A stretch of DNA of 38,269 bases, from positions 1 through 38,269 of the forward strand of contig JABFXX010000310.1 in assembly GCA_013368795.1 (NCBI GenBank), read 5' to 3'. This DNA is from Kofleriaceae bacterium (GTDB lineage Bacteria > Myxococcota_A > Polyangia > Haliangiales > Haliangiaceae). The position numbers were made by a program, and so were the translations under genes. Of this stretch, positions 33,961 through 38,269 are shown in pieces (position 1 is the stretch's first letter; every line of letters starts with the position of its first letter). The notes beneath the pieces are model-generated. The model was not told the origin of the DNA. It saw only the letters and a program-made list of their open reading frames with translations, and made no database searches.

Positions 33961-34032
33961 GGCGCCGAACCTATCTCCCCGCCCGGGCCGGGCGCAACGA
34001 CATCAGACCCCCGTGCGATCGTCGACGGCGAC

Positions 34033-35265
34033 ATGCGACTCCTGCACACGTCCGACTGGCACCTCGGACACACCCTGAAGGAGGTGACTCGTGACCACGA
34101 GCACGCTGCCTTTCTGCGGTGGTTGCTGGAGACCTGCGTCCGCGAGGCGCCCGACGCGCTCGTCATCACGGGCGACGTATTCGACGCCGGCACCCCGCCC
34201 GCGAGCGCCGAGCGCATGTGGTTCGAGTTTCTCGCCGCGGCGCGTCGCGCTCGGCCCGCGATGGACATCGTCGCGATCGCGGGCAACCACGACTCGCCGG
34301 CGCGCCTGGGCGCCTCCTCGGCGGTCCTGCGCGAGCTCGGCGTCCACGTGATCGGTGGCCTGCCGCGTCTCGACGGCTCGATCGACCTCGACCGCGTGCT
34401 GATCCCGGTCGCCGGCGGCCAGGGCCTTGTCGCCGCGGTGCCATTCCTGCGTCCGATCGACATCCCGGTGCCGGTCGAAGACCCGCTCGCAACCGTCTAC
34501 GGCGAGGTGCTCGCCGGCGCGCGCGACCGGCGCCGTCCCGAGCAGGCCCTGATCGTCCTCGGCCACCTCTACGTCACCGGCGCCGATCCCTCCTATCTCA
34601 GTGAACGTCGCATCTCGATCGGCGGCCAGGAGTCGGCGTCGCTGCGGCTGTTCCCCGATGACATCGACTACGTCGCGCTCGGCCACATGCACCGCGCCCA
34701 GCGCGTCGGTCGCGACAGCATTCGCTACGCGGGGGCGCCGATCGCGCTGTCACTCGACGAGGCCGGCTATCGCCATGGCGTCGTCGTCGTCGATTTCGAG
34801 GGCGGCCGCGTGCGCGACCAGCGCGTGATCGATATTCCGCAGACCGTCGAGATCGTTCGCATCCCCGCGCGCGGTGCGGCGCCGCTGGCCGAGGTCGTCG
34901 CCGCGATCAGTGCGCTGCCGCCTCGTCTTGACGCCGACGATCCCGCACGGCCGTACCTCGAGATCGTCGTCGCGCTCGATCGTCCCGAGCCTCGGCTGCG
35001 CACCCAGGTCGAGACCGCGCTCGACGGCGAGCGCGCGCGCCTCGTCCAGCTCCATGTCCAGCTCAGCGGCGATGGTGCGGCGCTCGGCGATCGCGTGCAG
35101 ACCAAGCGGCTCGCCGAGCTCGATCCGCGGGACGTGTTCGCGCAGCTGTGGGCACGCAGCCATGCCGATCCCCCGAGCGCCGCGGTCACCGGCGCGTTCG
35201 AACGCCTGCTCGCCGAGGTGCAAGGCGACCTGGACGATCCGGAACGTGCAGCGAAGGTGTCATGA
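34033..35265 (+). CDS. sbcD: SbcD nuclease subunit
   Basis: 410 aa from the ATG at 34033; the longer open frame upstream belongs to the antisense of the lipoprotein gene. Calcineurin-like phosphoesterase motifs in order: HTSDWHLGH (Asp8, His10), GDVFDAG (Asp48), AGNHDSPARLG (Asn85, His86), then GHLYV and GHMHRAQ for the last metal ligands. These bind two Mn ions in the Mre11/SbcD active site. The C-terminal DUF-type capping region is typical. With SbcC it opens DNA hairpins and palindromes and trims blocked ends. Its ATGA stop/start overlap joins it to the mini-ORFs that precede sbcC. Confidence 0.94.
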   Translation: MRLLHTSDWHLGHTLKEVTRDHEHAAFLRWLLETCVREAPDALVITGDVFDAGTPPASAERMWFEFLAAARRARPAMDIVAIAGNHDSPARLGASSAVLRELGVHVIGGLPRLDGSIDLDRVLIPVAGGQGLVAAVPFLRPIDIPVPVEDPLATVYGEVLAGARDRRRPEQALIVLGHLYVTGADPSYLSERRISIGGQESASLRLFPDDIDYVALGHMHRAQRVGRDSIRYAGAPIALSLDEAGYRHGVVVVDFEGGRVRDQRVIDIPQTVEIVRIPARGAAPLAEVVAAISALPPRLDADDPARPYLEIVVALDRPEPRLRTQVETALDGERARLVQLHVQLSGDGAALGDRVQTKRLAELDPRDVFAQLWARSHADPPSAAVTGAFERLLAEVQGDLDDPERAAKVS

Positions 35266-35456
35266 AGAGGCTCGCGATCAGAGATCGGCACCTGGCGCTC
35301 GCCAGGTGGCTCGCCGCCGCGCTCGCGGCTAGCGCGCGCTCGCCCGAGATCGATCTCGCGTCTGGCGCGCTCGGCGGCGTGGGCGTGTTCGCGATCGTCG
35401 GCCCGACGGGTGCGGGCACGAGCACGCTGCTCGAGCGAGGAGGGCGCCTGTCATGA
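35262..35456 (+). CDS. Mini-ORF 1: SbcC N-terminal fragment with altered P-loop
   Basis: 64 aa from the ATG at 35262, which overlaps the sbcD stop. It reads MKRLAIRDRHLALARW..., then EIDLASGALGGVGVFAIVG and PTGAGTSTLLERGGRLS. This matches the first 47 or so residues of SbcC with a ten-residue insertion and with Thr in place of the P-loop Lys (GAGTST for GAGKST), so it could not bind ATP normally. It ends in an ATGA overlap with mini-ORF 2, nine bases after GGAGG. It may be expressed as a short peptide, or be a decaying duplicate. Intact frame and ribosome binding site keep both options open. Confidence 0.5.
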   Translation: MKRLAIRDRHLALARWLAAALAASARSPEIDLASGALGGVGVFAIVGPTGAGTSTLLERGGRLS

Positions 35457-35617
35457 GGATCCTCGCTATTCGCGGCTGCAACCTGGCGAGCCTCGCCGGC
35501 GAGTTCGAGATCGATCTCGCCACGGGTGCGCTCGGCGGCGCCGGCGTGTTCGCGATCGTCGGTCCGACGGGCGCGGGCACGAGCACGCTGCTCGAGCGTG
35601 GAGGGCGGCTGTCATGA
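35453..35617 (+). CDS. Mini-ORF 2: SbcC N-terminal fragment with the same altered P-loop
   Basis: 54 aa from the ATG at 35453, with GGAGG nine bases upstream. It reads MRILAIRGCNLASLAGEFEI, then DLATGALGGAGVFAIVG and PTGAGTSTLLERGGRLS. Up to the P-loop it is identical in protein to the start of SbcC, with Lys changed to Thr. The stop TGA overlaps the ATG of sbcC, and its last bases carry the GGAGG that serves sbcC. Near-identity to copy 3, with mostly silent changes, shows either a recent duplication or conversion between copies. Whether the peptide has a role is not known. Confidence 0.5.
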   Translation: MRILAIRGCNLASLAGEFEIDLATGALGGAGVFAIVGPTGAGTSTLLERGGRLS

Positions 35618-38269
35618 GGATCCTCGCGATTCGCGGCTGCAACCTGGCGAGCCTCGCCGGCGAGTTCGAGATCGATCTCGCCACGGGCGCGCTCGGCGGC
35701 GCGGGCGTGTTCGCGATCGTCGGTCCGACGGGCGCGGGCAAGAGCACGCTGCTCGACGCGATGTGCGTCGCGCTGTTCGATCGCACGCCGCGCCTCACGA
35801 ACCACAGCCGTGTGGTCGTCGGTCGAGGCGACGACGATCCGACCGCGCTCGGCGCGCAGGACGTCCGTACACTCCTGCGCCGTGGCGCGAGCTCGGGCTG
35901 GGCCGAGGTCGACTTCGAGAGCGGCGACTCGCGTCGCTACCGGGCGCGGTGGTCGGTGCGGCGCGCTCGCGGCGCGACCGACGGTCGGTTTCAGAGCCAG
36001 CAGGTGACGCTCGCGGCGCTCGATCGCAGCGGCCTTGTCGCCGAGCAGCTCGGCGGCACCAAGACCGAGACGCTCGAGGCGATCCACCAGCGTCTCGGTC
36101 TCACGTTCGATCAGTTCCGCCGCTCGGCGCTCCTCGCCCAGGGCGAGTTCGCCGCGTTCCTGCGCGCCGACGGCAAGGACCGCAGCGAGCTCCTCGAGCG
36201 CATGACGGGCACCGAGATCTACTCGGAGCTGTCGATCGCGGCGCACGTCAAGGCGGCCCTCGCCGAGCAGCAGCTGCGCGAGCGTCAGGCCGTCGCGCTC
36301 GCGATCGGCGTCCTCTCGCCCGAGGCGCGTGCCCAGGCCGAGGCCGATCTCGATCTCGCGAAGCAGGCGCAGGCGGCGTCGCGCGCTCGACTCACCGCTG
36401 CAGAGGCCGCCGCCCGTTGGCTCGCCGAGGCGAAGTCGCGCCGTCGCGCACTCGTCGAGGCGGAGACCGCGCGCTCCGCTGCCGAGCAGGCCGTCGAGGC
36501 GGCGCAGGTTCTCCGCGCCGAGCTCGCATTGCGCCGGCGGGCCGAGGCGATGCGTCCCGCGTGGGACGACGCGGCAAAGCTCGATCGTCAGCTCGCGATC
36601 GCGCAGGGCGACCTCGCCGCTGCGACCGAGGCTGCCGAGCGTGCGGGCGCGGCGCAGCGCGAGGTCGCCACGCGCCGGGCCCGGCTCGTCGAGCTCCACA
36701 CGCCGATCCGCGAGGCGCGCATCGCGGCGGGGCTGCGCATCGACGAGCGCGCGCCCAGGGTGAGCGCGTCGCCGCGACGGAAGCGCGGCACTGCCATCGC
36801 GGAGGACGCGGCACCGCGCGCTCGCAGTCGAGCGAGCGAGGCAATTGACCGAGCTCCTGCACCGGGGCACGTCGCATCGGCGATGGACGCGTTTGACGTC
36901 GATCTCGAAGCACGCGCCGTCGAGGCAACGACGCGCGATGCCGCTTGGCTCGCGGCGCGCGCTTCGCTCGTCGACGGCATCGCGACGTGGCGCGAGCTCG
37001 ACGGAAACCTCGCCCAGCACGCCGCGCTCGCCGCCGAGATCGTCGCGGCCGATCGCGCGCTCGACGAGCATGCGCGCCGCCGCGATCTGCTCGGCCGCCA
37101 GCGCACCGCTGCGGCGCTCGAGCACCAGCAGGCGCAGGCCAAGCTCGGCGAGGCACAGCGCGAGGCCGACGCATACTCCAAGCGCCGCGGTCTCACGCTC
37201 GATGCCGCACGCCGCGCCGAGGACGAAGCGCGCAAGCGCAGCGGCGATTTCGATCGCCTGCTCGCGCTGACCGGTGAAGCTCGCGGTGCCGCGACCGCGC
37301 GTGCCGAGCTCGAGCGCCAGGTCGGCGAGCTCGCCGCCGCCGCCGCTGCCGATGTCGAGGCGCGCCGGATTGCCGAATCCGCGCGCGACACCGCATCGAC
37401 ACTTCGTACCGAGCGCGCGCGTGTCGTCGAGGAGCTGCGCAAGGCCGCCGGCTATGCCCACGCTCGCACCGAGCTCGTCGACGGTGAGCCGTGTGCCCTG
37501 TGCGGCGCGACCGAGCACCCGTGGGCCAGCCGCGGCTCGTTCGAGCCGCTGATCGCCGACGCGCAGGACAAGCTCGCCGAATCATCCGACCGGTTCGAGC
37601 GCGCGCTCGCCACGCTCGCGGGTCTCGACGCACGCGACCAGCATCGCGCGGTCGAGCGCCAGCGCCTGACCTCGTGCCTCGCGACGGCGGAGCGGAGCGC
37701 GGCGGCGGCGCAGGCGAGCTGGCGCGAGCAACTCGCCGCGCTCGGCGAGCTGCTGCTCGTCGACGATCCGTCGAGCGACGCGGCCAAGCAGCTCGCCGAC
37801 GACCGCATCGTCGCCGCCCGCTCGAAGCTCGATGCCGCGCGCACGGCGCGTCACCAGGCCGAGGCCGTCGCGAAGGCCGGCGCCGATGCACAGGCGCTGG
37901 TCCAGACCCGCCACAACGATGTCGAGCAGCACGCGCGCTCGCTGCGCGAGCTCGACACGGCGCTCGCCTCGATCGAGGCCTCTGTCGCCCGCGTGCGCGG
38001 CGAGCGGGCGGGGAAGGTCGCGCGCGAGATCGAGCTACTCGTCGCGATCGATGCCGCGCTCGCCCACTGGACCGACGGCCTCTCGCCGGTCGAGCAACGC
38101 GCCATCGAGCAAGCGCGCGCCGTGATCGCGCCGGTGACCAACAGGGCTCCCGAACGACGTCCCGCGAAGCCCACCCCGAAGCCCAGCGCATCCTCCGGCG
38201 TCGTCGAGACCGCGACCGACGCCGGCAAGAGCGAGCGGCTGCTCGCGCCCGACGCGCTCGCGATCCTCG
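35614..38269 (+). CDS. sbcC: SbcC ATPase subunit, 3' truncated by window end
   Basis: At least 885 codons, open to the last base. MRILAIRGCNLASLAGEFEI begins the SMC-like head; Walker A is GPTGAGKST at about 38-46, LLDAMCVALFDRTPRL follows and RSALLAQGEFAAFL is the family Q-loop region. Long Ala/Glu/Arg-rich coiled coils occupy the rest, interrupted by EPCALCGATEHPW, the Rad50-type zinc hook (CxxC). The second coil then runs back toward a C-terminal head that lies beyond the window. A short stretch around 36760-36900 is Pro/Arg-rich and less regular but stays in frame. With SbcD it forms the ATP-driven hairpin nuclease. ATG at 35614 overlaps the mini-ORF 2 stop, GGAGG nine bases before. Confidence 0.93.
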   Translation, partial: MRILAIRGCNLASLAGEFEIDLATGALGGAGVFAIVGPTGAGKSTLLDAMCVALFDRTPRLTNHSRVVVGRGDDDPTALGAQDVRTLLRRGASSGWAEVDFESGDSRRYRARWSVRRARGATDGRFQSQQVTLAALDRSGLVAEQLGGTKTETLEAIHQRLGLTFDQFRRSALLAQGEFAAFLRADGKDRSELLERMTGTEIYSELSIAAHVKAALAEQQLRERQAVALAIGVLSPEARAQAEADLDLAKQAQAASRARLTAAEAAARWLAEAKSRRRALVEAETARSAAEQAVEAAQVLRAELALRRRAEAMRPAWDDAAKLDRQLAIAQGDLAAATEAAERAGAAQREVATRRARLVELHTPIREARIAAGLRIDERAPRVSASPRRKRGTAIAEDAAPRARSRASEAIDRAPAPGHVASAMDAFDVDLEARAVEATTRDAAWLAARASLVDGIATWRELDGNLAQHAALAAEIVAADRALDEHARRRDLLGRQRTAAALEHQQAQAKLGEAQREADAYSKRRGLTLDAARRAEDEARKRSGDFDRLLALTGEARGAATARAELERQVGELAAAAAADVEARRIAESARDTASTLRTERARVVEELRKAAGYAHARTELVDGEPCALCGATEHPWASRGSFEPLIADAQDKLAESSDRFERALATLAGLDARDQHRAVERQRLTSCLATAERSAAAAQASWREQLAALGELLLVDDPSSDAAKQLADDRIVAARSKLDAARTARHQAEAVAKAGADAQALVQTRHNDVEQHARSLRELDTALASIEASVARVRGERAGKVAREIELLVAIDAALAHWTDGLSPVEQRAIEQARAVIAPVTNRAPERRPAKPTPKPSASSGVVETATDAGKSERLLAPDALAIL

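Follow-up and report, generated by a model that had tools for sequence, protein, structure and literature searches.

Organization of the sbcD–sbcC junction

The stretch of DNA analyzed here, hereafter the window, comprises all 38,269 nucleotides of contig JABFXX010000310.1 (G000:C351 in our numbering) from a Kofleriaceae bacterium, and toward its end carries sbcD and sbcC, separated by an array of repeated gene starts. The assembly to which it belongs (GCA_013368795.1; 9.8 Mb in 723 contigs) is 90% complete, with 6.9% contamination. SbcCD is a nuclease of the Mre11-Rad50 type, of which SbcD and SbcC are the two subunits. Both genes lie on the forward strand in the usual order and are recognized by Pfam: sbcD (positions 34027–35265; 412 aa) by Metallophos (7.8e-19) and SbcD_C (8.4e-9), and sbcC (35614–38269) by AAA_23 (4e-21), with a head that contains the P-loop residue Lys43 (AAG at 35740–35742). 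The sbcC gene can be followed for 885 codons before the contig end cuts it off; contigs of the congeners G003, G008, G009, and G013 end inside sbcC as well. What distinguishes the locus from other SbcCD systems is that the 5′ end of sbcC, and only this part, is repeated, while the enzyme itself is unchanged as far as the contig shows.

Between the two genes lie two closed mini open reading frames (mini-ORFs) of 64 and 54 aa, both on the forward strand, which repeat the start of sbcC up to the P-loop. The first-pass annotation, made from the sequence alone, had drawn attention to them, and its description of their anatomy was borne out. Copy 1 (35262–35456) is an unfaithful copy, 30 nt longer than the others, in which much of the first half has been replaced while the second half remains sbcC-like. 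Copy 2 (35453–35617) and sbcC itself, counted as copy 3, differ over 48 codons at five positions only, comprising three silent changes, K43T, and a D/E exchange at the breakpoint. In both mini-ORFs, codon 43 reads ACG for threonine (35418–35420 and 35579–35581) instead of the AAG for the catalytic lysine of sbcC, and both share the C-terminus ERGGRLS. The stop codon of sbcD, which follows ERAAKVS, overlaps the start codon of copy 1 in an ATGA, and the same ATGA recurs at the other two junctions (35262, 35453, and 35614). Start-to-start spacing is 191 nt from copy 1 to copy 2, owing to the 30 extra bases, and 161 nt from copy 2 to sbcC. A GGAGG motif stands nine bases upstream of the ATG of copy 2 (35439–35443) and of sbcC (35600–35604, the Shine–Dalgarno (SD) sequence of sbcC), and none is present before copy 1. 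Copy 1 also holds a near-perfect 20-bp palindrome at 35289–35308 (CACCTGGCG-CT-CGCCAGGTG), which copies 2 and 3 lack in this form; at the corresponding place, sbcC has an imperfect palindrome only, and the copy 1 version looks like the product of a template switch.

Tandem Repeats Finder (TRF) scored the array at 741, with a 161-nt spacing and 93% matches. Applied to 60 other stretches of this genome (684,447 bases in total), the program reported 145 arrays with a longest period of 81, and among those with a period of at least 40 the highest score was 185, which places the array far beyond chance. A DNA search of the genome with the array returned 15 further matches, all of them short, nine of which fell on the P-loop end of the query. 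With a direct head-to-tail repeat beside the intact gene, the array is a tandem partial gene duplication, unusual for this genome but understandable in its origin. No Rfam family matched the window at gathering scores, and a promoter and terminator scan of 35000–35800 found neither.

The repeat unit spans a stop–start module

The mini-ORFs depart from sbcC at codon 47/48 and continue with ERGGRLS and a stop codon that overlaps the next ATG. Past this breakpoint, only 10 of 21 bases agree with the continuation of sbcC. The ends of copy 1 (35432–35452) and copy 2 (35593–35613) were compared with the end of sbcD before copy 1 (35241–35261). Anchored at the ATG, the copy 2 tail matches it at 14 of 21 positions, a value reached by 36 of 76,496 21-mers of the window, the tails themselves included. 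In the congener G014, the best of 13 relative junctions tried, sbcD ends with RERGRSS; this end matches the copy 1 tail so well that a fraction of 0.0005 of 4000 random pieces did equally well (0.019 for the copy 2 tail).

The best reading of these data is that the array arose by tandem duplication and that its 161-bp unit carries the native stop–start module of sbcD and sbcC. This accounts for the ATGA junctions, the GGAGG motifs, and the closed frames with their common RGGRLS end. The unit length (3 × 54 − 1) has the phase required of any duplication that restores an NTGA overlap. On the simplest reading, the duplicated segment would have begun about 20 nt before the sbcD stop codon, and no separate selection is needed beyond the one-in-three chance of the right phase at the breakpoint. 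A known route to such arrays starts with a local tandem duplication, through slippage or short-homology recombination, and proceeds by unequal crossing-over. The array resembles its products in the head-to-tail repeat, the hybrid middle copy described below, and a possible 3-nt homology (CGA) at the breakpoint, provided that the old sbcD end resembled that of G014. It differs from a plain local duplication in that the unit spans the stop–start module and in that relatives show comparable events at this junction, too.

Among the genomes searched, long copies occur in the window only

To place the array among its relatives, we searched 30 genomes of the family, of which 25, including that of the window, gave a match to the sbcC head and five gave none. 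None of the other 29 has a second P-loop-long sbcC head on one contig, and no orthologue of a P-loop-bearing mini-ORF was found in the relatives examined. The first-pass annotation had named relatives with sbcD directly before a single sbcC start as evidence against the array. Such a plain 4-nt overlap is indeed found at 10 of 14 junctions in the genus, so that the long copies are not conserved; three other congeners, however, have short mini-ORFs of their own. A conserved upstream ORF or peptide was rejected as an explanation because none of the relatives examined has long copies.

The genome G007 is a special case. It contains one sbcD and, on separate contigs that both break at the junction, two sbcC heads (94% alike): C289 ends 239 bases into sbcC, and C238 starts 97 bases before sbcC. 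On C238, a 27-aa frame beginning with MKTLAI and ending with ERPVDGDVS precedes sbcC and resembles copy 1 of the window. The 62 bases before the part shared by the two contigs resemble copy 1 (none of 1000 shuffles was as good) and the sbcC head of the window (P 0.002), and show no resemblance to the sbcC head of G007 itself (P 0.15). Likewise, on C289 the long sbcD end and the sbcC head that follows it show no resemblance to each other (P 0.79). G007 may thus represent two strains or a broken array, and may be another case of duplication; in the junction counts, C238 was left out and C289 was entered as a plain overlap.

Short stop–start duplications recur in the genus

We next walked from the sbcD stop codon along NTGA overlaps at 189 loci, drawn from the best 80 of 255 matches, the genus and family searches, a search of 377 genomes (118 with a match; weaker matches were left out), and 80 chosen stretches. 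This yielded 179 distinct junctions, of which 177 had sbcD; L018 and L337 were dropped since no sbcD was found upstream, and close species remain among the 177. At 147 junctions the genes overlap directly by 4 nt, which identifies the NTGA overlap as the native state of the pair. Seven junctions carry a mini-ORF chain that ends at the next start, and 23 are without a chain.

Besides the window, three congeners have chains. In G013 (L021/L046), NTGA-chained mini-ORFs of 11 and 9 aa lie about 90 bases before sbcC, where the sbcD end is tandemly repeated over 32 nt (24/32 identical). G009 has a mini-ORF of 5 aa with a 14-nt repeat (11/14). In G004 (L235; G004:C508:1-3000, at the reverse strand end), sbcD ends with IAS. 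The mini-ORF behind it, MRILAIRGVDLVRSSS, has 16 aa and opens with eight codons that reproduce the sbcC start exactly. A second copy of this start stands at the contig end, giving an exact 26-nt repeat with a spacing of 47; the sbcC gene expected after the repeat was not found. Outside the genus, Enhygromyxa salina (L089, upstream of 3001) has a 4-aa mini-ORF (MRAP) with an exact 11-nt repeat across the junction, G248 (L267) has one of 3 aa (MSR) with an 8-nt repeat (7/8), and a Holophagaceae genome has one of 47 aa.

Chain mini-ORFs are thus present at 4 of 14 readable junctions in the genus, compared to 3 of 163 elsewhere (Fisher 0.0008 with and 0.0056 without the window); two of the 16 genus genomes, G002 and G006, gave no sbcD–sbcC junction. 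Restricted to the tandem type, the ratio is 4/14 to 2/163 (0.0003, and 0.0029 without the window). In all six tandem-type events the start-to-start spacing is 2 mod 3. Furthermore, where the sbcD stop codon lies in an NTGA and the sbcC start is further downstream, seven of nine junctions form chains (binomial 0.008 against one third), with L290 and L311 breaking the rule. These tests were post hoc and used related genomes, in a genus selected on account of the window, and they under-detect diverged duplications that are out of phase, so the phase bias of the tandem events is suggestive. An unbiased repeat scan between the genes at a threshold of 13/17 returned the window and the Enhygromyxa repeat only. 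Taken together, stop–start modules at sbcD–sbcC appear to have been duplicated several times within one genus, and this weaker recurrence appears to be the new element; a literature search, judged from the search results rather than from full texts, returned no report of such duplications at this junction.

As a control within the genome, we collected NTGA pairs of mechanically called ORFs of at least 200 codons, some of which are surely not genes, from the 60 other stretches and the window, and obtained 150 direct pairs and 51 chains. Tandem-unit similarity in the other chains never exceeded 0.62 (a 5-nt unit; the next was 0.59 over 38 nt), compared to 0.75–0.79 in G013 and G009. The measure sees well-kept units only: it scores the first unit of the window itself at 0.39, because copy 1 is diverged and has 30 extra bases.

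Proposed translational coupling across the array

Termination–reinitiation coupling at ATGA overlaps has been described for other gene pairs (PMC6728339 and PMC10666635), and the 4-nt overlap of sbcD and sbcC is of this kind. In PMC10666635, which used reporters in E. coli and Haloferax, hardly any reinitiation and coupling remained once the stop and start codons were about 20 nt apart, and in the two E. coli pairs tested coupling needed no more than 15 nt of upstream gene sequence, so that short upstream stretches can suffice. The window differs from these pairs in that the overlap is interrupted by tiny ORFs that repeat the junction, which turns one overlap into a chain. By the distances reported there, an sbcC start pushed hundreds of bases away from the sbcD stop codon would be uncoupled, unless the inserted sequence forms an ORF whose stop codon meets the start of sbcC. 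The array provides this twice, each start overlapping the preceding stop codon at its three ATGA junctions, and we propose from this arrangement that downstream translation at the array depends on upstream translation. Calculated SD duplex energy is −4.0 (weak) before copy 1, −12.3 (strong) before copy 2, and −9.8 (good) before sbcC, with a median of −8.6 in 80 relatives. Since the SD sequence before sbcC is good, SbcC may partly start on its own.

The encoded peptides and the order of events

Copy 1 matches AAA_23 with 0.0059, which is under the Pfam cut-off, and copy 2 with 4e-5 (24.8 bits; cut-off 27). Both matches stop at profile position 37 of 201, and neither mini-ORF has the Walker A lysine and the two ATPase halves that make up an ATP-binding Rad50/SbcC head. 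To polarize the changes between the copies, 13 sbcC heads of relatives (12 genomes) were used. Codons 7–18 of copy 1 are largely replaced, with most of the head's initial portion lost, and in codons 19–47 at least two changes alter the protein (A30V and K43T), with G40 as the one clearly silent change; codon 24, which is variable, has S for T, with the direction unclear. Judged against the 13 heads, no convincing selection on the mini-ORF peptides was found. The conservation and selection raised by the first-pass annotation found no convincing backing: long copies are absent from the 29 other family genomes, copy 1 looks neutral, and the own changes of copy 2, although compatible with constraint, are too few. 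An argument for selection from raw copy-to-copy counts was rejected, since some of the silent differences lie on the sbcC side. The peptides themselves are most likely inert.

The same comparison points to the order of events. At codon 6, copies 2 and 3 have ATT, and copy 1 has ATC, as do 11 of the 13 relative heads; at codon 37, copies 2 and 3 have GGT, found in none of the 13, and copy 1 has GGC. K43T, in turn, is common to copies 1 and 2 only. The middle copy thus looks like a hybrid, sbcC-like to at least codon 37 and copy 1-like at codon 43, as could result from unequal crossing-over in a two-copy array or from gene conversion. At four-fold degenerate sites, copy 2 and sbcC differ at 3 of 31, compared to 32 of 75 between the sbcC genes of the window and G007 (ungapped codons), so that the second step is young relative to the species split but not fresh. 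The earlier suggestion of duplication products kept in frame is thus supported, with some refinements: the unit spans the junction, the history would comprise at least two steps, the middle copy looks hybrid, and copy 1 is not very recent.

Weighing the explanations

We consider it probable that the array originated by a tandem duplication spanning the stop–start module, was reshaped by a later exchange, and kept its relay while the peptides remained inert. The segment duplicated in tandem would have comprised about 20 nt of the sbcD end, whose stop codon overlaps the start of sbcC, and the sbcC head as far as codon 47/48, leaving the upstream head free to drift and to gain K43T. The heads would later have undergone an exchange that yielded a third one, a hybrid whose 5′ part is sbcC-like and whose end, with K43T, comes from copy 1. 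Each copy is a closed ORF, running from the preceding stop codon to the start codon that follows, so a ribosome that has finished sbcD would be handed on stepwise, by termination–reinitiation, into sbcC. Such duplications would survive by keeping this coupling, and the array would at most alter how closely the synthesis of SbcC follows that of SbcD.

Several observations weigh against this explanation. In a gapped local alignment, the tails do not significantly resemble the present sbcD end of the window (a fraction of 0.42–0.47 of random pieces was equal), and among the 17 other TCATGA sites of the window there is one that agrees with the copy 2 tail better than the sbcD end does (13 versus 12 of 19). 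The hybrid depends on two silent sites against one, and repeated mutation could have given the same pattern. In this G+C-rich genome, short ORFs often form NTGA chains by chance (51 chains versus 150 direct pairs), and a chain without a repeat proves little. One of the E. coli pairs tested in PMC10666635 bridges 14–15 nt, which makes uncoupling by distance gene-dependent. Finally, the coding changes of copy 2's own are three silent ones and no others (P 0.021–0.028 if neutral), a pattern that may be compatible with constraint, although the changes are too few.

Among the alternatives, a selected translational relay fares best, though we regard it as rather unlikely. Here, duplication of the stop–start module would be a recurrent, selected retuning of the subunit ratio in a coupled complex, with lineages of the genus repeatedly gaining and losing steps that tune SbcD:SbcC, each a self-contained mini-ORF in the single phase in which ribosomes can be passed on, and the relay of the window would have grown to two ORFs of P-loop length. 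The enrichment of mini-ORF junctions in the genus, the uniform 2 mod 3 spacing, and the well-kept units of G013 and G009, unmatched among the other chains of the window's genome, speak for it. Mutation bias together with loss of uncoupling duplications can also give recurrence, however, and the numbers are small, drawn from kin genomes of a window-chosen genus, with events recognized via their chain; in addition, the control misses diverged units, and two junctions break the chain rule.

An assembly artefact or strain mixture is less likely still. The fragmentation and contamination of this metagenome-type assembly, and a unit length near that of short reads, would be in keeping with one, but the three copies are non-identical, copy 1 contains unique sequence, and related events occur in congeners from other assemblies. 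Moreover, a strain bubble would not create a junction of sbcC head to sbcD tail, which at least one real molecule should hold.

The ATP-blind decoys once suggested, i.e., SbcC-head fragments with a dead P-loop that interfere with or assist SbcC, are very improbable: both frames are open and carry K43T, copy 2 has a strong SD sequence and only silent coding changes of its own, but copy 1 has lost most of the head's initial portion, the AAA_23 matches end early and below the cut-off, and no congener examined has kept such a copy.

Implications

A tandem duplication of a stop–start module, as probably occurred in the window, offers a simple route by which tiny ORFs come to lie inside operons: a duplication across an overlapping stop–start pair brings its own restart signal and leaves translation of the downstream gene unbroken. 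It is also a warning that a short ORF beside its parent gene may carry a recognizable domain without encoding a functional protein. If the recurrence in the genus reflects selection, the congeners, with zero, one, or two relay ORFs, would provide a natural series for relating the number of reinitiation steps to the stoichiometry of a two-subunit complex.

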